From: Phlegmacium glaucopus
Taxonomy: Eukaryota; Basidiomycota; Agaricomycetes; Agaricales; Cortinariaceae
Reading direction: 5' to 3'
Length of the DNA: 61,718 nt
NCBI GenBank assembly: GCA_015039465.1
Contig: MU129984.1
Coordinates: 18,073-79,790, forward strand
A model generated the notes under the pieces. The model was not told the origin of the DNA. It did not search any database and worked only from the letters and a program-made list of their open reading frames with translations. Shown piece after piece: positions 104 to 50,669 of the stretch. The stretch's first letter is position 1, and the number at the start of each line of letters is the position of its first letter. The position numbers and the translations under genes were made by a program.

Positions 104-1120
104 CAAGTGCAAAGTCATCTTGATCTTCCTTAAATCTAGCTTACTATTTTGACAGAGAGTAAGTGCAAGCACAGAGAAGTTTTTATTATTGTCATCTTGC
201 TTTATTAATGTCTGCTTTCTTGGTATGTCTTTAATCAAGGAAGTATGTGCAAGAGAGCTATAATTATTAATCACCATTCTTTTACTGATCTTACAATGTA
301 TTTGGACAGTATGTAAGTGCACTGATTATATCATTATTGTTGCTAACCTCAAGTGGCATATTCTTTTGGCAGCATGTATGTTGAACATGTCATTTTTCTA
401 CCATTTACTTGATGACATACATTTATTAACAGAATGTATGTGCAAACAGTTTGTGATTTGCCTTGTTCTTTGCTTACTTATGGAATACCATTACTTACAG
501 GGGGTAAGTATTACAATATTATTTTTTTATTCTCTGTAATAACACTTGGTGATTGTTTTTTAAAATTATTTCCATCTCCATATTCACCTTTTTTATTCAG
601 CTTTCATACTAACTTTCAATATACAGGATTCCATCTCCAAAATGATGCCATTCATTGTGAGTATTTGCTCTTTGGAAGTACATAAAAGTGACATTTTTAA
701 AAATTTCAAGCTTTCTGGCCTATCTGCTGACCTCAATTTAAAAGAAACTACATACTGTGCAATTGGCATGTATCTGATCCAACTTTCCTTTCCATACTCT
801 CCATATTGACTTTTTCTATTAGTTGCAGCTATTCTTGGCCACTTGTCTTTCTTTCTTCACAAAGAATCACCAAAGACAATGGACTCCTTGGACAGAGCTG
901 TCCAAATTTACCAACAATCAACTTGTGACACCTCTGTCAAGCAAGCAGTTGAGAAGATTTTTGAACTTGAAAATATTTCCAAAGGCTCTTATGTCAATCA
1001 TACATGGCTGGCTGAAGAGGCTGTACAGATTGCATTGAATAATCTCATATGTATGGATTTTACAATTCATTTCTTCTATTTGTTGACAACTGCTAATTGG
1101 GAACTATAGTAAGAAAATAA
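104..1120 (+). pseudogene. 5'-truncated GTPase-family gene copy with single-codon exons
   Basis: This is the 3' half of a gene homologous to the GTPase gene at 45110-50669, in the opposite orientation. Exons read from splice signals and from alignment to that copy are 156-158 (AGA), 240-242 (GAA), 310-312 (TAT), 373-375 (CAT), 433-435 (AAT), 501-503 (GGG), 627-656, 711-756, 829-1050 and 1110-1120. Each 3-nt exon lies between an AG acceptor and a GTAAGT/GTATGT donor. The longer exons stay open in one frame and end in TAA at the same place as the other copy. The C-terminal part is conserved (for example AVQIYQQSTCDTSVKQAVE here and AVKIYQQSTCDASVKQAIE there). The GTPase domain and almost all of the repeat array are missing on the left: only one degenerate array intron remains at about 104-155, with its donor GT lost. 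It is probably a pseudogene, although the C-terminal frame is still intact. Confidence 0.8.
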
Positions 1121-26108: not shown

Positions 26109-28484
26109 TTATAGTTGCTGCAAAACAAGCACCTTGGACTTAGCTACCTCGTGGCGGGAGGTTGAGTCGAGCCATGCAATTTGTCGCGATATGGCTTGCA
26201 GAGCGGACACCTTTTGAGCTGCAATAGGATAGTAAGCCTAGGTAAGAGATCTCACAATTAAGACACGCACGCAACAGCATTATACAGGTCAGACATGAGC
26301 TTGTGGTAAAATTCCGGGCGTTCTTCACGCAATGTAGTGAGGAAAAGCTCATGCCCTCGGTAAATAAACTCATAGGCTTCAGCGCGAAAGTCACTCTTGG
26401 TTCGTTTGTAACCCTGGCTCCAGTCGTCAAGCGAGGCATGGGCCTGATAGATATAAGCCACTCAGATGTGAGAACAAATAATTACTAGCTTACCGATGTT
26501 GCCACAATGCAGACCATAGGGATCGGCAACTCCAGCTCACTCTTTCCTGGGCCGTCTGTGATACATGAGGAAAATCGAGTCTGGTATTTTTGCCCATGTG
26601 TTCCACGGCTTCCTGTGAAAAAGCATTCTTTCATGGAGGAAATGATGCATGGATGAAAATATGGACGGTTAGTATCGACACCTCCACCCTAAAAGATACA
26701 GAACTACAAGTTAAGATGAGGAGAGATTCTGATGACTCAAAAGAACATACGGCTGCAGGGTAAATGTAATCCTGGTCTTCGTTCGTGAGGGCTTTAACAC
26801 GAGATCCAGCATCATCTCCAGCCAGAAGCTGATAGAATCCCTCAACCTTCTTGTCGGTGATCCCCTTTGGACGAGTACGCAGATTGGAGACACGAGCGTT
26901 AATCTGAAGTTTAAAACGTCATAAGCACATAGTAGATCTGCATGATAAGAGACCGTACCACTCGAGCACAGAGCCTTACTAGCTCATCGTCTGCTTTAAG
27001 CCTTTTGGTGATTTCAAAGTACTTGAGGCGCTTCGAACACTGGATAAAAACATCACGATGGAAAGTGTCGAACTCCACCTGTTCGGCAGCAGGGTATGCA
27101 GAATCAAATAAAAAATGTTCAGTAACCTGATTAACCGCGGCGCGTATCATCCTTTTCATGGGTTGGGGTTGTTTCATAATACTTAGATTACGGGCATCCC
27201 GGCGAATAGGCGTGTAATGGGCTTCCACTGGCCAGCCTCTGTTGACGTCTTGAAACGCTTGACGGTCATCATCATTGTTATTGTCGTTGTCGTTGTCGTC
27301 ATCATTGTCGGCAGAGCCGTCCACATCAGACAAGGCATGACCATGGGACTTGCGCCGGTTTCCAGCAGACTAAGTTGATAGCAATGTTTGAGGTCAACGT
27401 AAAGGTTCTTTGATATTGAGGAAAAGATGTTACCTTGGTAGCAGCTTGGACATGGGACTTGGATTTCCATTTCGGAACCTTCAAATGATAGATGAATTGA
27501 GTAATGAACACCGACTATGACATGATCATACCTCTGAGATACGTGCGGCATCGCGCTTTGAGGGCCCAGTCTACAAATGATACCCTACTGAGAATTATGA
27601 GGTTGAAATTAAATCAAAGACATACCTTTTTAGTGCTGCTGTGTCGAATCCTGATTTCAGGTTCTGACTCGGATGCTTCATCCTTTTGATCCTCCCCACC
27701 TTCTTTGTTCTCGTCATCTTCGTCGAAGGCTCCGTCGAACTCAGAGGCTGTCGTGCCTGGTTCATAATCAGGGAATGAACAATCCTGATTGTCTTCAAGA
27801 TGCTTGTCATTGTCAAAAAGATGCCGAGGGTCCGAAGCATCCATGTCTGAGTCGACAGGACTTTTATTCCACCGAGGGCGCTGTAATGTTGTTAAAGTTA
27901 ATATACAACGATACAACTATCAGTTAAAGAAAACATACCTCAGACGACATCTTCTCTTTCAAGGAAGCCTTGTCGAGATGCTGCAGATCCGAGTCATCAG
28001 GATCTTCATCATGATAGTCCAGCTCTTCTTCACTGGACTTTCTACCACTTGCCGAGTCGGTTTCCGAATCGATATCATCGGTTTCCTTGGACGTGGTTGG
28101 TGCGGGACGGCGGTGAGTCACAGGGATGCTTGAATGCCTATCACGGACATCAACAACCTTCATGATCACGACATCGTCATCGTCATCATCATTGTCATTG
28201 TCATTGTCATTGTCATTGTCATTGTCATTGTCATTGTCATTGTCATTGTCATTGTCATTGTCATTGTCATTGTCATCATCATCATCCACATTTATTGGGA
28301 CAGGCTTTCGACAAGTTGCTGAAATAAAATGTTGAGTAAATGAATCAGAGACCATCCTTATAACATCCCCGCCATTGCGCGTTTTTTGGGCTCCTGAGTT
28401 GCTGAAGCTACTGAAAATGAGTCGCGACATATCAGATGGGTGATGGAATACCAATACTTACCCTTCTTGGTCTTCTTTGACAGT
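26109..28484 (-). CDS. DUF6532-type fungal protein, 3' part (5' end lies in the mirrored segment)
   Basis: Multi-exon minus-strand gene ending with TAA at 26109. An acidic, repetitive N-terminal half (Asp-Asn repeat at about 28191-28276, then SSEEELDYHDEDPDDSDL and EDDENKEGGEDQKDEASESE) is followed by a conserved globular domain: MIRAAVNQVTEHFLFDSAYP, FDTFHRDVF, KRLKADDELVRLCARVV, NRPYFHPCII, and a C-terminal ALYAALDDWSTG-like segment that reads HASLDDWSQGYKRTKSDF. This is the layout of the DUF6532 family, abundant in mushrooms and of unknown function. The natural sequence stops at about 28485. The expected start (MVKGGRPKAATTGTLKSK-like) is legible only from the complement of 29740-29830 read left to right, that is, after un-mirroring 28485-31335. 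Confidence 0.7.
28191..28276. repeat. hexanucleotide microsatellite coding for Asp-Asn
   Basis: About 14 tandem ATTGTC units on the plus strand. On the minus strand they code for alternating Asp and Asn inside the DUF6532 protein. Shorter versions occur at about 27270-27310 and 24780-24805. Confidence 0.9.
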
Positions 28485-40639: not shown

Positions 40640-41500
40640 CACGATATGGAGATGTGCGTCACCTATGGGATGGGAGAGCAACCCAAGATGTGGGTCGCAG
40701 AAGTATGTGCCATCGCTTGGCACATGAAGATAAATAATGAAATAAAGTAATAATGAAGAGAGGTGGAGATAATGACCGGGAAAGTAGTATGATGTATAGG
40801 CAACAGCCACCACAAATGAGTTGTAGGGGTGTGCACCACTCCGGAGACGATTGAGTCATCATGCTCAATACATGGAAGACAAAAAGTGGAGAGAACGACC
40901 ACTGCAGGTGGGTGTAGAAGTGTGCGCCACTCCCAGGACAGTCGAGTCATCGTGCCTGACACACAGAAAGTAACTGATAGAGAGAACGATCACTACAGGT
41001 GAATCGTAGAAGTGCGCGCCACTCCCAGGACGGTCAGTCATCGTGCCCGACACACGGAAAGCAACAGATAGGAGAACGACCACCGGAAGTGAGTCGTAGA
41101 AGTGCACACCACTCCCAGGACGGTCAGTCATCGTGCCCGACACACGGAAAGCAGCAGATAGAGAGAACGACCACCAGAAGTGAGTCGTAGAAGTGCGTGC
41201 CACTCCCAGGACGGTCGGTCATCGTGCTCAACACACAGGAAATGATAAGGGTACGCGCCACCCTTGAGACGGGCAAAGCACCTGAGGTGAATTGCGACAA
41301 GAGAACAACTTCCCGAAGGTGAGTCATAGAAGTACGCACCACTCCCAGGATGGTTGAATCATAGTGCTCGACACACAGAAACAAAAGGGTACGTGTTACC
41401 CTTGGGACGGGCAATACACCAGAGGTGAATTACATGAGAGAATGACCACCAAGAGGTGAGTCGTAGGAGTGCGTGCCACTCCCAAGACGGTCGAATAAAT
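40640..41500. repeat. tandem repeat, about 91-bp unit
   Basis: Units starting near 40907, 40999, 41089 and 41180 share GTGAGTCGTAGAAGTGCGCG, CACTCCCAGGACGGTC and CATCGTGCCCGACACACGGA. Longer, more diverged units continue to about 41500 and earlier ones begin near 40640. No coding role is seen. Confidence 0.8.
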
Positions 41501-45109: not shown

Positions 45110-48100
45110 TTATTTCCTTGCTATAGTTCCCAATTAGTACTTGTCAATAAATAAAAGAACTGAATTATAACAACCATACATATGAGATTATTTAATGCAA
45201 TCTGTACAGCCTCTTCAGCTAGCAATGCATGATTGACATTAGAGGCTTTGGATTTGAAAAGATTTGAGAATGCATGATTGACATGAGAGTCTTCAGAAAG
45301 ATTTTCAAGCTCAGAAAGATTTTCAATTGCTTGCTTGACAGAGGCATCACAAGTTGATTGCTGGTAAATTTTGACAGCTCTTTCCAAAGAATTGGATTTA
45401 CTTGGTGATTCCTTGTGAAGAGAGAAAGACAAGTGGCCAAGAATAGCTGCAACTAATAGAAAAAGTCAATTTGGAGATGGAAAGGAAAGTTGAATCAAAT
45501 GCATGCCAATTGCACAGTATGTAATTTCTTTTAATTTAATGTTGGTAGATAGGCCAGACAGCTGGAATTTTTTAAAATTGAACTTGGTCACTTTTTGTAT
45601 TTCCAAAGAGCAAATACTCACAATTGGTGATGTAATTGTGTCAATGGAATACTGTACATTGAAATTTATCACAACTGAATAAAAAAAGTGAGTACAAGGA
45701 TGGAAATGATACAAACAAAACTCACCAAATGTGATTACAGACAATAAAGACAATGTTAAGAGTAGTTTTAATACTTACAGTCTATAAATAATGGTATTCC
45801 ATAAGTAAGCAGAGAAAAAAGCAGATCACAAACTGTTTGCACATACAGTCTGTTGACAAATGTATGTCATGGAGTAAAGAGTTGATAAAATAATGTATTC
45901 AACATACATGCTGCCCAAAGAATACACCAATTGAGTCAGCAACAATCATGATATGATCAGTGCACCTACATGCTGTCCAAATACATTGTAACATCAGTGC
46001 AAGAATGGTGATTAACAATGATAGCTCTCTTGCACATACTTCCTGTCATCAAAGACATACAAAGAAAGGAGACATTGATAAAGAAAGGTATCAGAACAAT
46101 AGAGACTCTTCTGAGCTTGCACTTACTCTCTGTTGAAAGAGTAAACTAGTGTCAAGACAGATCAAGATAGTCTTGTACTCACTCTCTGTCAAAATAGTAA
46201 GCTAAAGGGCAGATCAAGATAGTTTTGTGCTTACTCTCTGTCAAAAGGGTAAGCTAGAGTCAAGGCAGATCAAGATGGTCTTGTGCTTACCTCCTGTCAA
46301 AAGGATAAGCTAGAGTCAAGGCAGATCAAGATGCTCTCTTCCTTACCTCCTGTAAAGAGAGTAAGCTAGAGGCAAGGCAGATCAAGATGGTCTTGCACTT
46401 ACTCCCTGTCAAACAAGTAAGCTATAGTCAAGGCAGATCAAGATGGCCTTGGACTTACAAACTGTCAAAATAGTAAGTTTGAGGCATAGCAGATCAAGAT
46501 AGCCTTGGACTTACAAACTGTCATAAGAGTAAGCTAAAGTCAAGACAGATTAAGACAGGCTTGCACTTACCTCCTGTTAAAAGAGTAAGCTAGAGTCAAG
46601 GCAGGTCAAGATGGCCTTGCACTTACAAACTGTCAAAGTAGTAAGTTAGAGTCAAAGCAGATGACAATGGTCTTGCATTTACCAACTGTCAAAAGAATAA
46701 GCTAAAGCCAAGGTAGATTATGCTGGTCTTGCACTTACTTCCTGCCAAAAGAATAAGCTAGACCCAAGGCAGATCAAGATAGCCTTGCATTTACATGCTG
46801 TCAAAAGAATAAGCTAGACTCATGGCAGATCAAGATGGTCTTGCACTTACATGCTATCAAAACAGTAAGCTAGAGTCAAGGCAGATTAAGGCAGTCTTGC
46901 ACTTACATGCTATCAAAACAGTAAGCTAGAGTCAAAGACAGATCAGGATAGTCTTGCATTTACCTTCTGTCAAAAGAGTAGAGTCAAAGACAGATCAGGA
47001 TAGTCTTGCATTTACCTTCTGTCAAAAGAATAAGTTAGAGTCAAGGCAGATCAATATAGTCTTGCACTTACAAACTATCAAAAGGGTAAGCTAGAGTCAA
47101 GGCAGATTAGAATGGTCTTGCACTTACAACCTGTCAAAAGGTAAGTGAGACTCAAGGCCAATAAAAATAGCCCTGCACTTACTTCCTGCCAAAAGAGTAA
47201 GATGGAGTCCAGGCAGATCAAGATGATATTTCACTTACCCCCTATCAAAAGAGTAAGCTAGACTCAAAGTAGATCCATATAGCCTTGCACTTACCATCTG
47301 TCAAAAGACCAAGCTAGAGCCAAGGCAGATAAAGATGGCTTTGCACTTACCCCCTGTCAGAAGCATAAGCTAGACTCAAGGCAGATCAAGATGGTCTTGC
47401 ACTTACAAACTGTCAAAAGAGTAAGCTAAAGTCAAGACAGATTAAGACAGGCTTGCACTTACCCCCTGTCAAAATAGTAAGCTAGAGTCCAGGCAGATCA
47501 AGATGATCTTGCACTCACTCCCTGTCAAAACAGTGAGCTAGACTCAAAGCAAATCAAGCAAATCAAGATGGTTTTGCACTCACTGGCTGTCAAAACAGTG
47601 AGCTAGACTCAAAGCAAATCAAGATGGTTTTGCACTCACTCCCTGTCAAAACAGTGAGCTAGACTCAAAGCAAATCAAGATGGTTTTGCACTCACTCCCT
47701 GTCAAAAGAGTGAGCTAGACTCAAAGCAGATCAAGATGGTCTTGCACTCACTCCCTGTCAAAAGAGTAAGCTAGACTCAAGGCAAATCAAGATGGTCTTG
47801 CACTGACATGCTGTCAAAAGGTAGGCTAGTGGCAAGACAGATCAAGATTGTCTTGTACTTACTGCCTGTCAAAAGAGTAAGCCAGACTCAAAGCAAATCA
47901 AGATGGTTTTGCACTCACTCCCTGTCAAAACAGTGAGCTAGACTCAAAGCAAATCAAGATGGTTTTGCACTCACTCCCTGTCAAAAGAGTGAGCTAGACT
48001 CAAAGCAAATCAAGATGGTTTTGCACTCACTCCCTGTCAAAACAGTGAGCTAGACTCAAAGCAAATCAAGATGGTTTTGCACTCACTCCCTGTCAAAACA

Positions 48101-50669
48101 GTGAGCTAGACTCAAAGCAAATCAAGATGGTTTTGCACTCACTCCCTGTCAAAACAGTGAGCTAGACTCAAAGCAAATCAAGATGGTTTTGCACTCACTG
48201 GCTGTCAAAACAGTGAGCTAGACTCAAAGCAAATCAAGATGGTTTTGCACTCACTCCCTGTCAAAAGAGTGAGCTAGACTCAAAGCAGATCAAGATGGTT
48301 TTGCACTCACTCCCTGTCAAAAGAGTGAGCTAGACTCAAAGCAGATCAAGATGGTTTTGCACTCACTCCCTGTCAAAAGAGTGAGCTAGACTCAAGGCAG
48401 ATCAAGATGGTCTTCTACTTACTCCCTGTCAAAAGGGTAAGCTAGATTCAAGGCAAATCAAGATGGTCTTGCACTGACATGCTGTCAAAAGGTAGGCTAG
48501 TGGCAAGACAGATCAAGATTGTCTTGTACTTACTGCCTGTCAAAAGAGTAAGCCAGACTCAAGGCCAATTAATATAGTCTTGCACTTACTCCCTGTAAAA
48601 AGACTAAGATAGAGTCAAGGCAGAATTCAGATGGACTTCCACCCACCCCCTGTCAAACAAGAAGCTAAAGCCAAGGTAGGTCAATATGGTCTTGCACTTA
48701 CATACTGTCAAAAGATGTCAAAAGAGTAAGATAGAGGAAGATGGTCTTGCACTTACTCCCTGTCAAAAGAGTAAGCTAGACTTAAGGCAGAATCCTGATG
48801 GTCTTCCACTCACATACTATCAACAGAGTAAGCTAGAGTCAAACACAGATCAAGACAGTCTTGCACTTACATCCTGCCAAGGAGTAAGCTAGAGTCAAGG
48901 CAGATCAAGATGGTCTTGTACTTACACACTGCTAAAAGTATGAACTAAAGGCACAGCAGATCAAGATGGTGTTTCACTTACACCCTATCAAAGAGTAAGC
49001 TAAAGTCAAGGCAGATCAATATGGTCTTGCACTTACATACTGTCAAAAGAATAAGCTAGATTTAAGGCAGATGAAGACAGCCTTGGACTTACTCCCTGTC
49101 AAAAGAGTAAGCTAAAAGTCAAGCTGGATTAAGATAGTCTACTATTAATCTTGGACTTACCTCCTATCAAAAGAGCAAGCTAGAGCCAAGACATGCCAAA
49201 GTGATCTTGCACTTACATACTATTAAAATGGTAAGCTAGAATCAAGCCAGAACAAGATGGTCTTGCACTTACAACCTGTCCAAGAAAAGGTGAGGTAATT
49301 AGCCAGATAATATAGTGACCTCTTTTCCTACATACACACTGTCAAAATCTATATTAGTCCAGCTTTTGAGCACTAAATGCCTAAGGTAACACTCTACACA
49401 ACTCAATTAGTTGTCATCTATTTTGATTTGACCAAATACATACTACAATTTGTGGAAAATATCCCAGCACAATTGCCATAACATCTGCCCCATCTCTGTT
49501 ATCCTTAAACAGACTGGATTCTTTCTTATTTACAATTCTAGGAATCATGTTAATGTGATAAATTTAAAAATGATGGTTCCCCACCTTCTAACTCCATATG
49601 CAATACACAACTCAATATTATTTTGTTGGGTTGAAACAAAAAGTTGTTGCAATTTTTTATTAGAGAGTGCAGTTGTTGTTTTCTCAATCAAGTCTTTACA
49701 ATTGGCTCCAGGCTCATGCATCTCTACAGTGTACACCACATAATTAGGCAAATAATTATTAACAAGTACAACACTTACTTCGAAATACAACATATGCCTT
49801 GGGTGGATATTTAAATGCTTCAAACCGTTCATGAATACTCTGTTCAAAATCAGTCCAGGCTTTTTCGGGAGCTTGTTGTATTGCCTCAGCCCGACTTTTA
49901 CCTTCCTTCATGAGTTGTTTGATTTTAGCAACATCAAGAGAGTCAGTCTTGGTCCATAAAACAATAACTGGTACTTCACAGAATAGTCATCTTTCATGGT
50001 AAATATTGATAAGGCAATACATACCAAGCCCTGTCCCACATTCATTGAAAAACTTGTTCTCTGCCGCAGTGATTGGCCGATCGTCACTTGTTGGAATGCA
50101 GTACCTATAAAAAACAGGTTCTTTTCTGTGAAGAGGGTTGTTCTCGAAAGGCAAGTATTAACACACCAGATTGCATGAAGTTGCTCCTTCACATTTCTTG
50201 CCCTCGAACGCTCCTTAATGAATTTCTGTACTAGCTTCAACTCCTGAGCACCGCCAGCTTCAAAACCACGGGAATCGTGAAAGACAAAACCATAATTGCT
50301 CTCAAATATCATTTCATTCTCAATGTCATGCTCTCCACGCTACAGTGCGAAGACATTAATTGAAAATTGCCCAATATTACTAGTAGTACATGAACGGCAT
50401 ACCTTCGCGCATGGATCAAGAGCCGATGACTTGATCTGGGATCATATGCATGGATGTCAATATCTGGTATGAACTTTCACTATCTACTTCACCTTTTTAC
50501 CACCTGGACTGAAGATCACAGGCTCTCCCGTAGCGTTGCAGAGTTTTCGCAGGATTGTTGTCTTGCCCGCATTGGCTCGGCCGATCACGAGGATGCGGAA
50601 TTGAGTAAATTTTGCTCGCAGTGCCTGAAGCCGCTCAGCAGTGAGTTGGGGATTCGATGAAGTAGACAT
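45110..50669 (-). CDS. P-loop GTPase-domain protein with about 64 consecutive single-codon exons
   Basis: Start ATG at 50669. N-terminal exons are 50493-50669, 50403-50435, 50167-50339, 50025-50104, 49779-49967, 49585-49723 and 49444-49495 (281 codons, all joins in frame). They encode a TRAFAC-like G domain of a family common in mushrooms: G1 VIGRANAGKTTI (about residues 28-39), RGEHDIENEM, G3 HDSRGFEAGG (about 91), YCIPTSDDRPITAAENKFF, G4 WTKTD (about 159) and QLFVSTQQNNIELC. The last of these exons ends in a hydrophobic IVLGYFPQIV. Then follow about 64 three-nucleotide exons (49393 to 45779), and then 45622-45651, 45516-45561, 45180-45446 and 45110-45120 with TAA. The C-terminal domain contains ERAVKIYQQSTCDASVKQAI. 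Total is about 462 residues if every microexon is used and about 398 if the array is removed as one intron. Splicing is inferred; the frame agreement on both sides is seen directly. The cellular role is unknown. Confidence 0.85.
45779..49393 (-). repeat. tandem array of intron + 3-nt exon units, about 56 bp each
   Basis: On the minus strand each unit reads donor GTAAGTGCAAG (or GTGAGTGCAAA), a middle close to ACCATCTTGATCTGCCTTGA, a branch-site-like TAGCTTAC or TAGCTCAC, the acceptor TTTTGACAG, and then a variable triplet before the next donor. By hand I read about 64 triplets, none of them a stop. GGA is by far the commonest; others include TTT, CAT, GAG, TAT, GGG, GAA, GCA, CCA and AAG. Units nearest each end are more diverged (52-85 nt introns); the centre (47500-48400) is nearly homogeneous. 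A few units are damaged, such as a 48-nt intron near 46970 and an extra partial copy near 48710. The array sits inside the GTPase gene between its two domains. Confidence 0.88.

Follow-up and report, generated by a model that had tools for sequence, protein, structure and literature searches.

Arrays of predicted single-codon exons between short, near-identical introns in GTPase genes of Phlegmacium glaucopus

Phlegmacium (Cortinarius) glaucopus is an ectomycorrhizal agaric. We analysed 61,718 nucleotides of its genome (contig MU129984.1 of assembly GCA_015039465.1, positions 18,073 to 79,790 of the forward strand), a stretch that we call the window throughout. On the minus strand of the window lies a fungal GTPase gene in which the G-domain exons are followed by a tandem array of short repeats and then, from position 45651, by the C-terminal exons (Table 1). 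A parser that combines splice-site weights with intron length, with the exon end ...FPQIV and the acceptor TTTCAATGTACAG as its anchors, divided positions 49443-45652 of the minus strand into 64 predicted introns separated by 63 exons, each exactly 3 nt long, the first triplet at 49338-49336 and the last at 45781-45779. There is no stop among the 63 triplets, and the reading frame is preserved from end to end. The introns are mostly 49-67 nt long with a mode of 53, and Tandem Repeats Finder reported a 56-bp unit in 56.3 copies at 46116-49280. The original prediction, made from the letters of the window, had described about 64 stop-free triplets, each a phase-0 exon of one codon between the G domain and the C-terminal domain of a GTPase; the anchored parse agrees with it, and its coordinates were essentially right. 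With a probability of about 0.88, we read the 63 triplets of this gene as exons of a single codon each, spliced from between 64 short introns and likely translated as a flexible linker; the intron itself may have been copied or homogenised between units.

A chance origin of the junction pattern is excluded: the window has 10 occurrences of an exact junction motif, 9 of them in the array and one at 147-169, and 100 dinucleotide shuffles have none. When the parser was run on reversed or reverse-complemented sequence, it returned at most one intron in the 6 loci tried. A search of the genome with the window array gave 49 matches, and a hand count, in which hits less than 12 kb apart on one contig were merged and places from further pattern searches added, put the number of array places at about 42; counts from the genome search are lower bounds. 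Our main analysis covers the 21 arrays that have both anchors (the window array, L009-L018, L020-L028 and L031). L019, which has a gap, L029 and L030, which is about half N, were left out for a missing anchor, and L032 and L033, parsed later, stand outside the main counts. Array size ranges from 14 introns (L033) to 101 (L012 and L020).

Exon length is nearly invariant across these arrays. With loosened site thresholds, GC donors allowed and exons of 1-12 nt equally weighted, 1221 of 1238 exons in the 21 anchored arrays were 3 nt long; of the 17 others, 12 measured 6, 9 or 12 nt and 5 were not multiples of three. An unanchored parse of 22 arrays, allowing 0-30 nt, gave 3 nt for 1051 of 1059 exons (the rest being three of 6 nt, four of 9 nt and one of 1 nt), with introns ranging from 46 nt upwards. 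Since intron length varies while the exon stays at 3 nt, it is the exon, not the repeat period, that is held fixed. A first parse with stricter thresholds found no chain in 9 of the 20 arrays tried; in the other 11 it yielded 528 exons of 3 nt out of 546 and no stop triplet, the exceptions including nine 7-nt exons at the ambiguous first exon and six of 55-60 nt at units with a weak site. In the later parses, L032 yielded 27 triplets and a single 10-nt exon, L033 13 triplets and a single 2-nt exon. A plain pattern search, which involves no parser, found TTTTGACAG with GTAAGTGCAAG 0-20 nt behind it 424 times genome-wide, in 419 cases at a distance of exactly 3 nt, and the exact junctions of this intron family (family 1) with 3-nt spacing number 433.

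The triplets are strikingly poor in stop codons. Across the 21 arrays, one of 1226 triplets is a stop, against 103.6 expected from within-array positional base composition; this count comes from a parse with a bonus for 3 nt; without the bonus the triplets number 1221, and the stop remains the only one. As units are related, we also counted each codon type once per array, which left one stop type among 420 against 34.0 expected (the minimum of 2000 simulations was 22). Codons that neighbour stops are frequent among the triplets (TAT 65, TGG 29 and TTG 138). The single stop is a TAG in a pseudogene member, L017 (C8:328000-337900), the only one of the 21 loci with stops in its tested exons (one in the G domain and one in the C-terminal part); the other 20 arrays have none in 1154 triplets. 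The flanking exons are constrained: for the 21 genes, the median ratio of nonsynonymous to synonymous divergence (dN/dS) is 0.252 in the G-domain exons, with 210 of 210 pairs below 1, and 0.447 in the C-terminal exon, with 95.7% below 1. Purifying selection on a fixed codon sequence in the middle of the array was rejected, the linkers aligning in only 5 of 210 paralog pairs at z>4 and in those mostly toward the conserved 3' end. As to composition, array triplets hardly ever have C at the third codon position (0.2% of 1051, or 2 triplets), and TGT, GTG and GTT are rarer than composition predicts.

We then compared the arrays with proteins of relatives, whose spliced-message sequences hold an array-like linker at the exact array site. 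P0121 (295 aa, on a 1373-nt Joint Genome Institute [JGI] contig) and P0122 (285 aa, on a 955-nt JGI contig) are uninterrupted at every exon join, their sequence leading from the G domain across the array site to the C-terminal domain; the matching genomic stretch exceeds 4 kb in the window gene and takes ~1.9 kb even in L033, which has the shortest array parsed. Between YFPHL or YFPNV and the C-terminal exons they carry linkers of ~43 residues (YVKFATLKWREMEMEW...WEHHDLN, P0121) and ~51 residues (WIGYQFFKEYEF...PMYDL, P0122). These linkers start with YV and WI, respectively, and the second triplet of the arrays, judged by eye, encodes V or I in 19 of 21. Scored for array composition, the linkers reach 0.44 (P0121) and 0.26 (P0122) bits per residue, and other windows of the same proteins at most -0.11 and -0.21. 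For the linkers of P0121, P0122, P0025 and P0018 together the range is 0.26-0.44, with other equal-length windows at most -0.05; the background was drawn from the remainder of these four proteins, and the contrast is the sharper for it. Because stops are nearly absent from the triplets and the relatives' linker-bearing proteins are unbroken, the triplets are most likely translated, each as an exon of one codon.

An exon of 3 nt is too short for exon definition, and we infer from this that each ~53-nt intron would be removed singly by intron definition, like the G-domain introns (median length 51-59 nt), with the codons joined into the linker. With almost every exon a single phase-0 codon, a unit can be lost or skipped without a frameshift. 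Such frame-safe skipping is what would be needed if the arrays served to make many isoforms, any donor joining any later acceptor, or acted as a timer that delays splicing. We think either role unlikely; the linkers of the two closest relatives' proteins that span the site, at 43 and 51 residues, fall within the range of the parsed arrays. Linkers of this length fit the inclusion of most triplets; on isoform diversity they have no bearing.

A second family of introns has the same geometry. In the P0008-type GTPase subfamily, an array of 76-bp units follows the FPHC exon, each junction consisting of CAACAG, a triplet and GTAAGTCATTGATT. The 73-nt intron of this family 2 aligns with the 53-nt intron of family 1 only at the level of shuffled sequence. 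We resolved 30 triplets in C164 and 13 each in C223 and C144, the latter two only partly covered. The intron consensus is identical in the three paralogs (0 of 73 positions differ), and units deviate from it by 3.2% in C164, 0.8% in C223 and 1.1% in C144; the triplets differ by 0.51, 0.64 and 0.66 per site, respectively, and look random. Genome-wide, all 108 matches to the family-2 junction pattern have exactly 3 nt between the sites, and among the 100 of 108 matches listed there are arrays in at least 8 places. One of the 56 triplets is a stop, against ~7 expected. Downstream of its array, the C164 gene encodes, as judged by eye, a C-terminal domain of the same kind. Backwards controls of the pattern searches were not all zero, giving 0+10 for the family-1 patterns, 20+16 and 21+16 for the family-2 patterns and 0+1 for one further pattern; none of the backwards-control matches of the first pattern lies inside the 38 fetched loci.

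Several observations weigh against reading the triplets as exons. The parser took its site weights from junctions with 3-nt spacing and is thereby biased to 3 nt; the genome-wide patterns are free of that bias. The L032 array has a TAG triplet although its tested exons are open, and the one family-2 stop, a TGA, stands in C223, where the G-domain exons look open and the C-terminal part falls outside the sequence covered. The relatives' linkers are known from protein sequences alone. Among deposited gene models, P0026 of P. glaucopus, mostly an exact match, exon by exon, to L031 (C237:137800-142700), joins the array-flanking exons across one 2666-nt intron; P0001 and P0005 appear to run into the first array intron and stop there. 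P0003, from a relative in the same clade, has an open frame of 305 residues on a 1117-nt contig and likewise appears to end in the first array intron, so messages that leave this intron unspliced would also exist.

As for the TAG triplets of L017 and L032, TAG is the sole stop codon that ends in AG and could itself serve as an acceptor. A genome-wide pattern search with TRR as the triplet, set within the 433 junctions overall, returned 20 TGG, 1 TAG (that of L032) and no TAA or TGA, with backwards controls of 0+0. The P0026 model is what would be expected if the array were a tandem repeat within one ordinary long intron, its splice-like signals being repeat sequence and its triplets untranslated, and tandem repeats within introns are common. 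This explanation is nevertheless highly improbable: it leaves unexplained a roughly 100-fold depletion of stops in the variable triplet, exact 3-nt spacing at 419 of 424 junctions, unbroken proteins of relatives with an array-like linker at the site, and a second, unrelated repeat of the same geometry.

Table 1. Positions of the GTPase gene, its array and related features (window positions unless a contig is named)
Feature	Position	Strand	Basis and remarks
G-domain part	49444..50669	-	ATG at 50669, G1 motif GRANAGKTT, to ...GYFPQIV, phase-0 end; tblastn exon matches, sequence, protein homologues
First array intron, 105 nt	49339..49443	-	Donor GTATGT; conserved 5' anchor of parsed arrays
Array of 63 predicted single-codon exons (TGT ... 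ACT), introns mostly 53 nt	45779..49338	-	Anchored parse; would encode CVYEGYGCDYGYGGAHGGGGPGGGGGAHGGGPGGFGMGEVFKKHHHELFEFFGEERRREHHTT
Recently expanded block within the array, near-identical units, mostly GGA triplets	47519..48536	-	Unit comparison
Last array intron, 127 nt	45652..45778	-	Ends TTTCAATGTACAG; conserved 3' anchor
Post-array exon YSIDTITSPI, phase 0	45622..45651	-	Sequence; gene model P0026 has the homologous exon DSISKIMSPI
Exon LSGLSTNIKLKEITYCAI(V), predicted GC donor	45507..45561	-	Sequence, P0026
Last exon(s), C-terminal domain AAILGHLSLSLHKES...	45121..45452	-	Predicted stop at 45121; gene end predicted only
Second array gene of this family, 3' end (C-terminal exons and final triplets)	110..1110	+	Left side truncated; C-terminal match C3:18885-19070
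Family-2 places	C164, C223, C144, C201, C203, C149, C34; L034, L036-L038		
Further family-2 array	C164:637096-638034		

To the left of about position 110, where the second array gene is truncated, the window sequence has no array look; L030, which spans that place, is the locus that is about half N. Two other tandem repeats were seen in the window, one of ~91 bp at 40807-41494 (with readings of 181 and 138 bp too) and one of the hexamer CATTGT in 17.5 copies at 28172-28276.

To place the encoded protein, we examined models and profile searches of its relatives. The AlphaFold model of P0025 is mostly confident for the G domain and a helical C-terminal domain, and the linker, residues 314-367, has a predicted local distance difference test (pLDDT) below 50, in keeping with the flexible linker first proposed as a product and now its likely one. 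In Pfam, an MMR_HSR1-type match reached 22.4 bits for P0097 against a gathering cut-off of 21.9, and P0025 (19.6) and P0099 (19.0) fell below it; P0026, P0121 and P0122 (start of the G domain lacking) returned no GTPase row. Across the six relatives scanned, only weak P-loop GTPase/ATPase and chance-level rows appeared, and none that would mark a NACHT/NB-ARC receptor. The best Foldseek hits were GM4951, Irga6, BDLP and IniA (E from 6e-5, query template modelling [TM] score 0.25-0.36), offering, as a lead only, a predicted fold nearest to immunity-related GTPases and bacterial dynamin-like proteins. The G domain of P0026 also holds a 23-residue insert, EKIEEEEKYDWEYSLREYYQVQI, that is array-like by eye; the short intron at that place cannot encode it.

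The introns and the triplets have diverged to very different degrees. In 750 units with 53-nt introns, entropy is 1.5-1.9 bits in each triplet column and 0.2-1.1 at intron positions 7-51, confirming that variation between units is concentrated in the triplet, as had been noticed in the window. Inside an array, the per-site difference is 0.08-0.24 for introns and 0.55-0.71 for triplets; for comparison, ordinary G-domain introns differ between paralogs with medians of 0.16-0.19 per site. When units from different family-1 arrays were paired by identical 26+26-nt flanks, the triplets differed in 23 of 25 pairs; within the same array they differed in 17 of 37. There are also recent block duplications in which the codon was copied along with its intron; the GGA block of the window is one. 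Mean intron identity exceeds 85% in 4 of the 21 family-1 arrays (L009, L018, L021 and L027) and in 3 of 3 family-2 arrays, a figure for intron DNA, where the published 85% criterion for the high-identity repeats of fungal NOD-like receptors is for amino acids. A block-wise comparison of homologous units had few usable runs (6 segments), because some arrays, L021 among them, resemble themselves at whatever lag they are compared. Constraint on the intron sequence is insufficient as the sole cause of homogeneity, other arrays tolerating more than 20% intron divergence; the variation is spread across the interior and highest at C and G. Pairing of the donor with the branch site in a hairpin was also rejected: a GTG donor with a CTC branch site occurs 11 times in the 750 units, all in the window. 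Folding z-scores of four introns lie between -1.4 and 0.6.

Near-identical introns around unrelated codons suggest a process other than duplication of whole units followed by mutation, which would hardly produce them. Because homogeneous introns, identical across paralogs, surround random triplets, we take the intron to be the copied unit. Copying or homogenisation would act among units as well as among paralogs, by way of excised-intron copies, for instance, or of introner-like insertions, and would leave the codons untouched, so that the linker could change quickly in length and sequence. In its widest form, this proposal has intron families copying themselves between every linker codon, each renewed as a unit and perhaps templated by the excised intron, at ~50 GTPase loci and in two unrelated families at the same position, with the effect of diversifying the protein; we hold that form tentatively, at somewhat less than even odds. 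Family-1 divergence is higher at intron positions 7-14 than at the centre: it is 0.149 against 0.114 over all arrays, and 0.087 against 0.047 if the three most uniform arrays are taken by themselves (values not adjusted for base type). Copying of the intron alone would not lead one to expect such a rise, and family 2 has none that is consistent. Moreover, the copying step is drawn from divergence patterns only, and diversifying selection or hypermutation of the triplet would be alternatives to it.

The first of these alternatives can be stated fully: the 56-bp unit is duplicated in tandem and selection then diversifies the codons, as in the high-identity repeats of fungal NOD-like receptors (NLR), giving a linker that serves recognition. 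It would account for the tandem block duplication in the window and for triplets far more diverse than the introns beside them, and the weak structural resemblance to immunity-related GTPases is in keeping with it. Hypervariable codons under positive selection within repeats are known from fungal NLRs (PMC4986451). The family-2 arrays of C223 and C144 are the difficulty, since their introns are ~1% off consensus and their triplets look random; by a rough estimate, selection alone would need an acceleration of about a hundredfold. We therefore regard diversifying selection on duplicated units as somewhat unlikely, and intron-only copying is favoured over it.

A different route to near-identical introns around unrelated codons would be the insertion of introner-like elements between the codons of a once contiguous, fast-evolving linker exon, which would also explain why two unrelated intron families occupy the same position in the gene. 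We know of no mechanism by which insertion would occur exactly every 3 nt and in one phase. Among the ~100 of 433 places listed, no copies lie outside arrays (introns elsewhere were not surveyed), and overall this origin seems improbable to us.

If each triplet is spliced, a single locus needs ~64 accurate splicing events to add 63 residues, and the ~42 family-1 and at least 8 family-2 places would bring the genome to roughly two thousand single-codon exons, extrapolating from 1226 in 21 arrays. Such arrays, if spliced, test the limits of intron definition directly, and their near-identical introns around unrelated codons would strongly support the copying of introns as units. As the array is missing from the deposited models P0001, P0005 and P0026, similar arrays may be overlooked in other mushrooms.

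We found no description of tandem arrays of 3-nt exons, by title or start of abstract, in the literature searched, a coverage that leaves subscription papers and bioRxiv mostly outside. Functional microexons are called previously undescribed in filamentous fungi in a paper on Trichoderma (PMC11121469). Isolated exons of 1 nt and 3 nt can be spliced (PMC4674806, PMC7392893, PMC12940212); those are single cases, whereas the exons predicted here are consecutive. The micro-exon genes (MEG) of schistosomes, viewed as a system of protein variation, have symmetric exons of 6 to 36 bp that make up ~80% of the coding region (PMC5825161). The arrays resemble them in having many small symmetric exons in succession, and differ in their single-codon exons, near-identical repeat introns, location in a GTPase gene and size of up to ~100 units. 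They also fall outside the MEG definition, in which most of the coding region lies in symmetric microexons of 6-36 bp, because here 3-nt exons would form the linker only and both domains lie in larger exons. The bicycle and megacycle genes of aphids likewise have many microexons of one phase; they evolve fast, have ~17 exons on average and include one gene with more than 100 microexons and a protein of ~2000 residues (PMC9168663). Their internal exons are nearly all in phase 2 and, by those figures, longer than one codon, and the passages available from that paper mention no repeated-intron array, unlike what we see here.

Other parallels concern the introns. In the Cryptococcus gene CNN00420, introns were gained by repeat expansion, the new ones exactly identical to others of the same gene (PMC2395259); that gene gained two introns, compared with dozens per gene at ~50 places here. 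Introner-like elements of fungi are near-identical introns multiplied within a genome (PMC4457414), and with 433 and 108 exact junctions both families share this trait. Here, unlike there, the copies stand in tandem, 3 nt apart, at one position in the gene, the listed places of family 1 (~100 of 433) and family 2 (100 of 108) lying in clusters or at an array end. Because the triplets vary, no constant target-site duplication is visible (terminal repeats and duplications were not searched for). Finally, the repeats of fungal NLRs of the HNWD type share with the arrays the combination of homogeneous repeats and hypervariable codons (PMC4986451). In those genes the whole repeat is coding, whereas in the arrays described here the hypervariable triplet alone would be coding and the rest of each unit intron.

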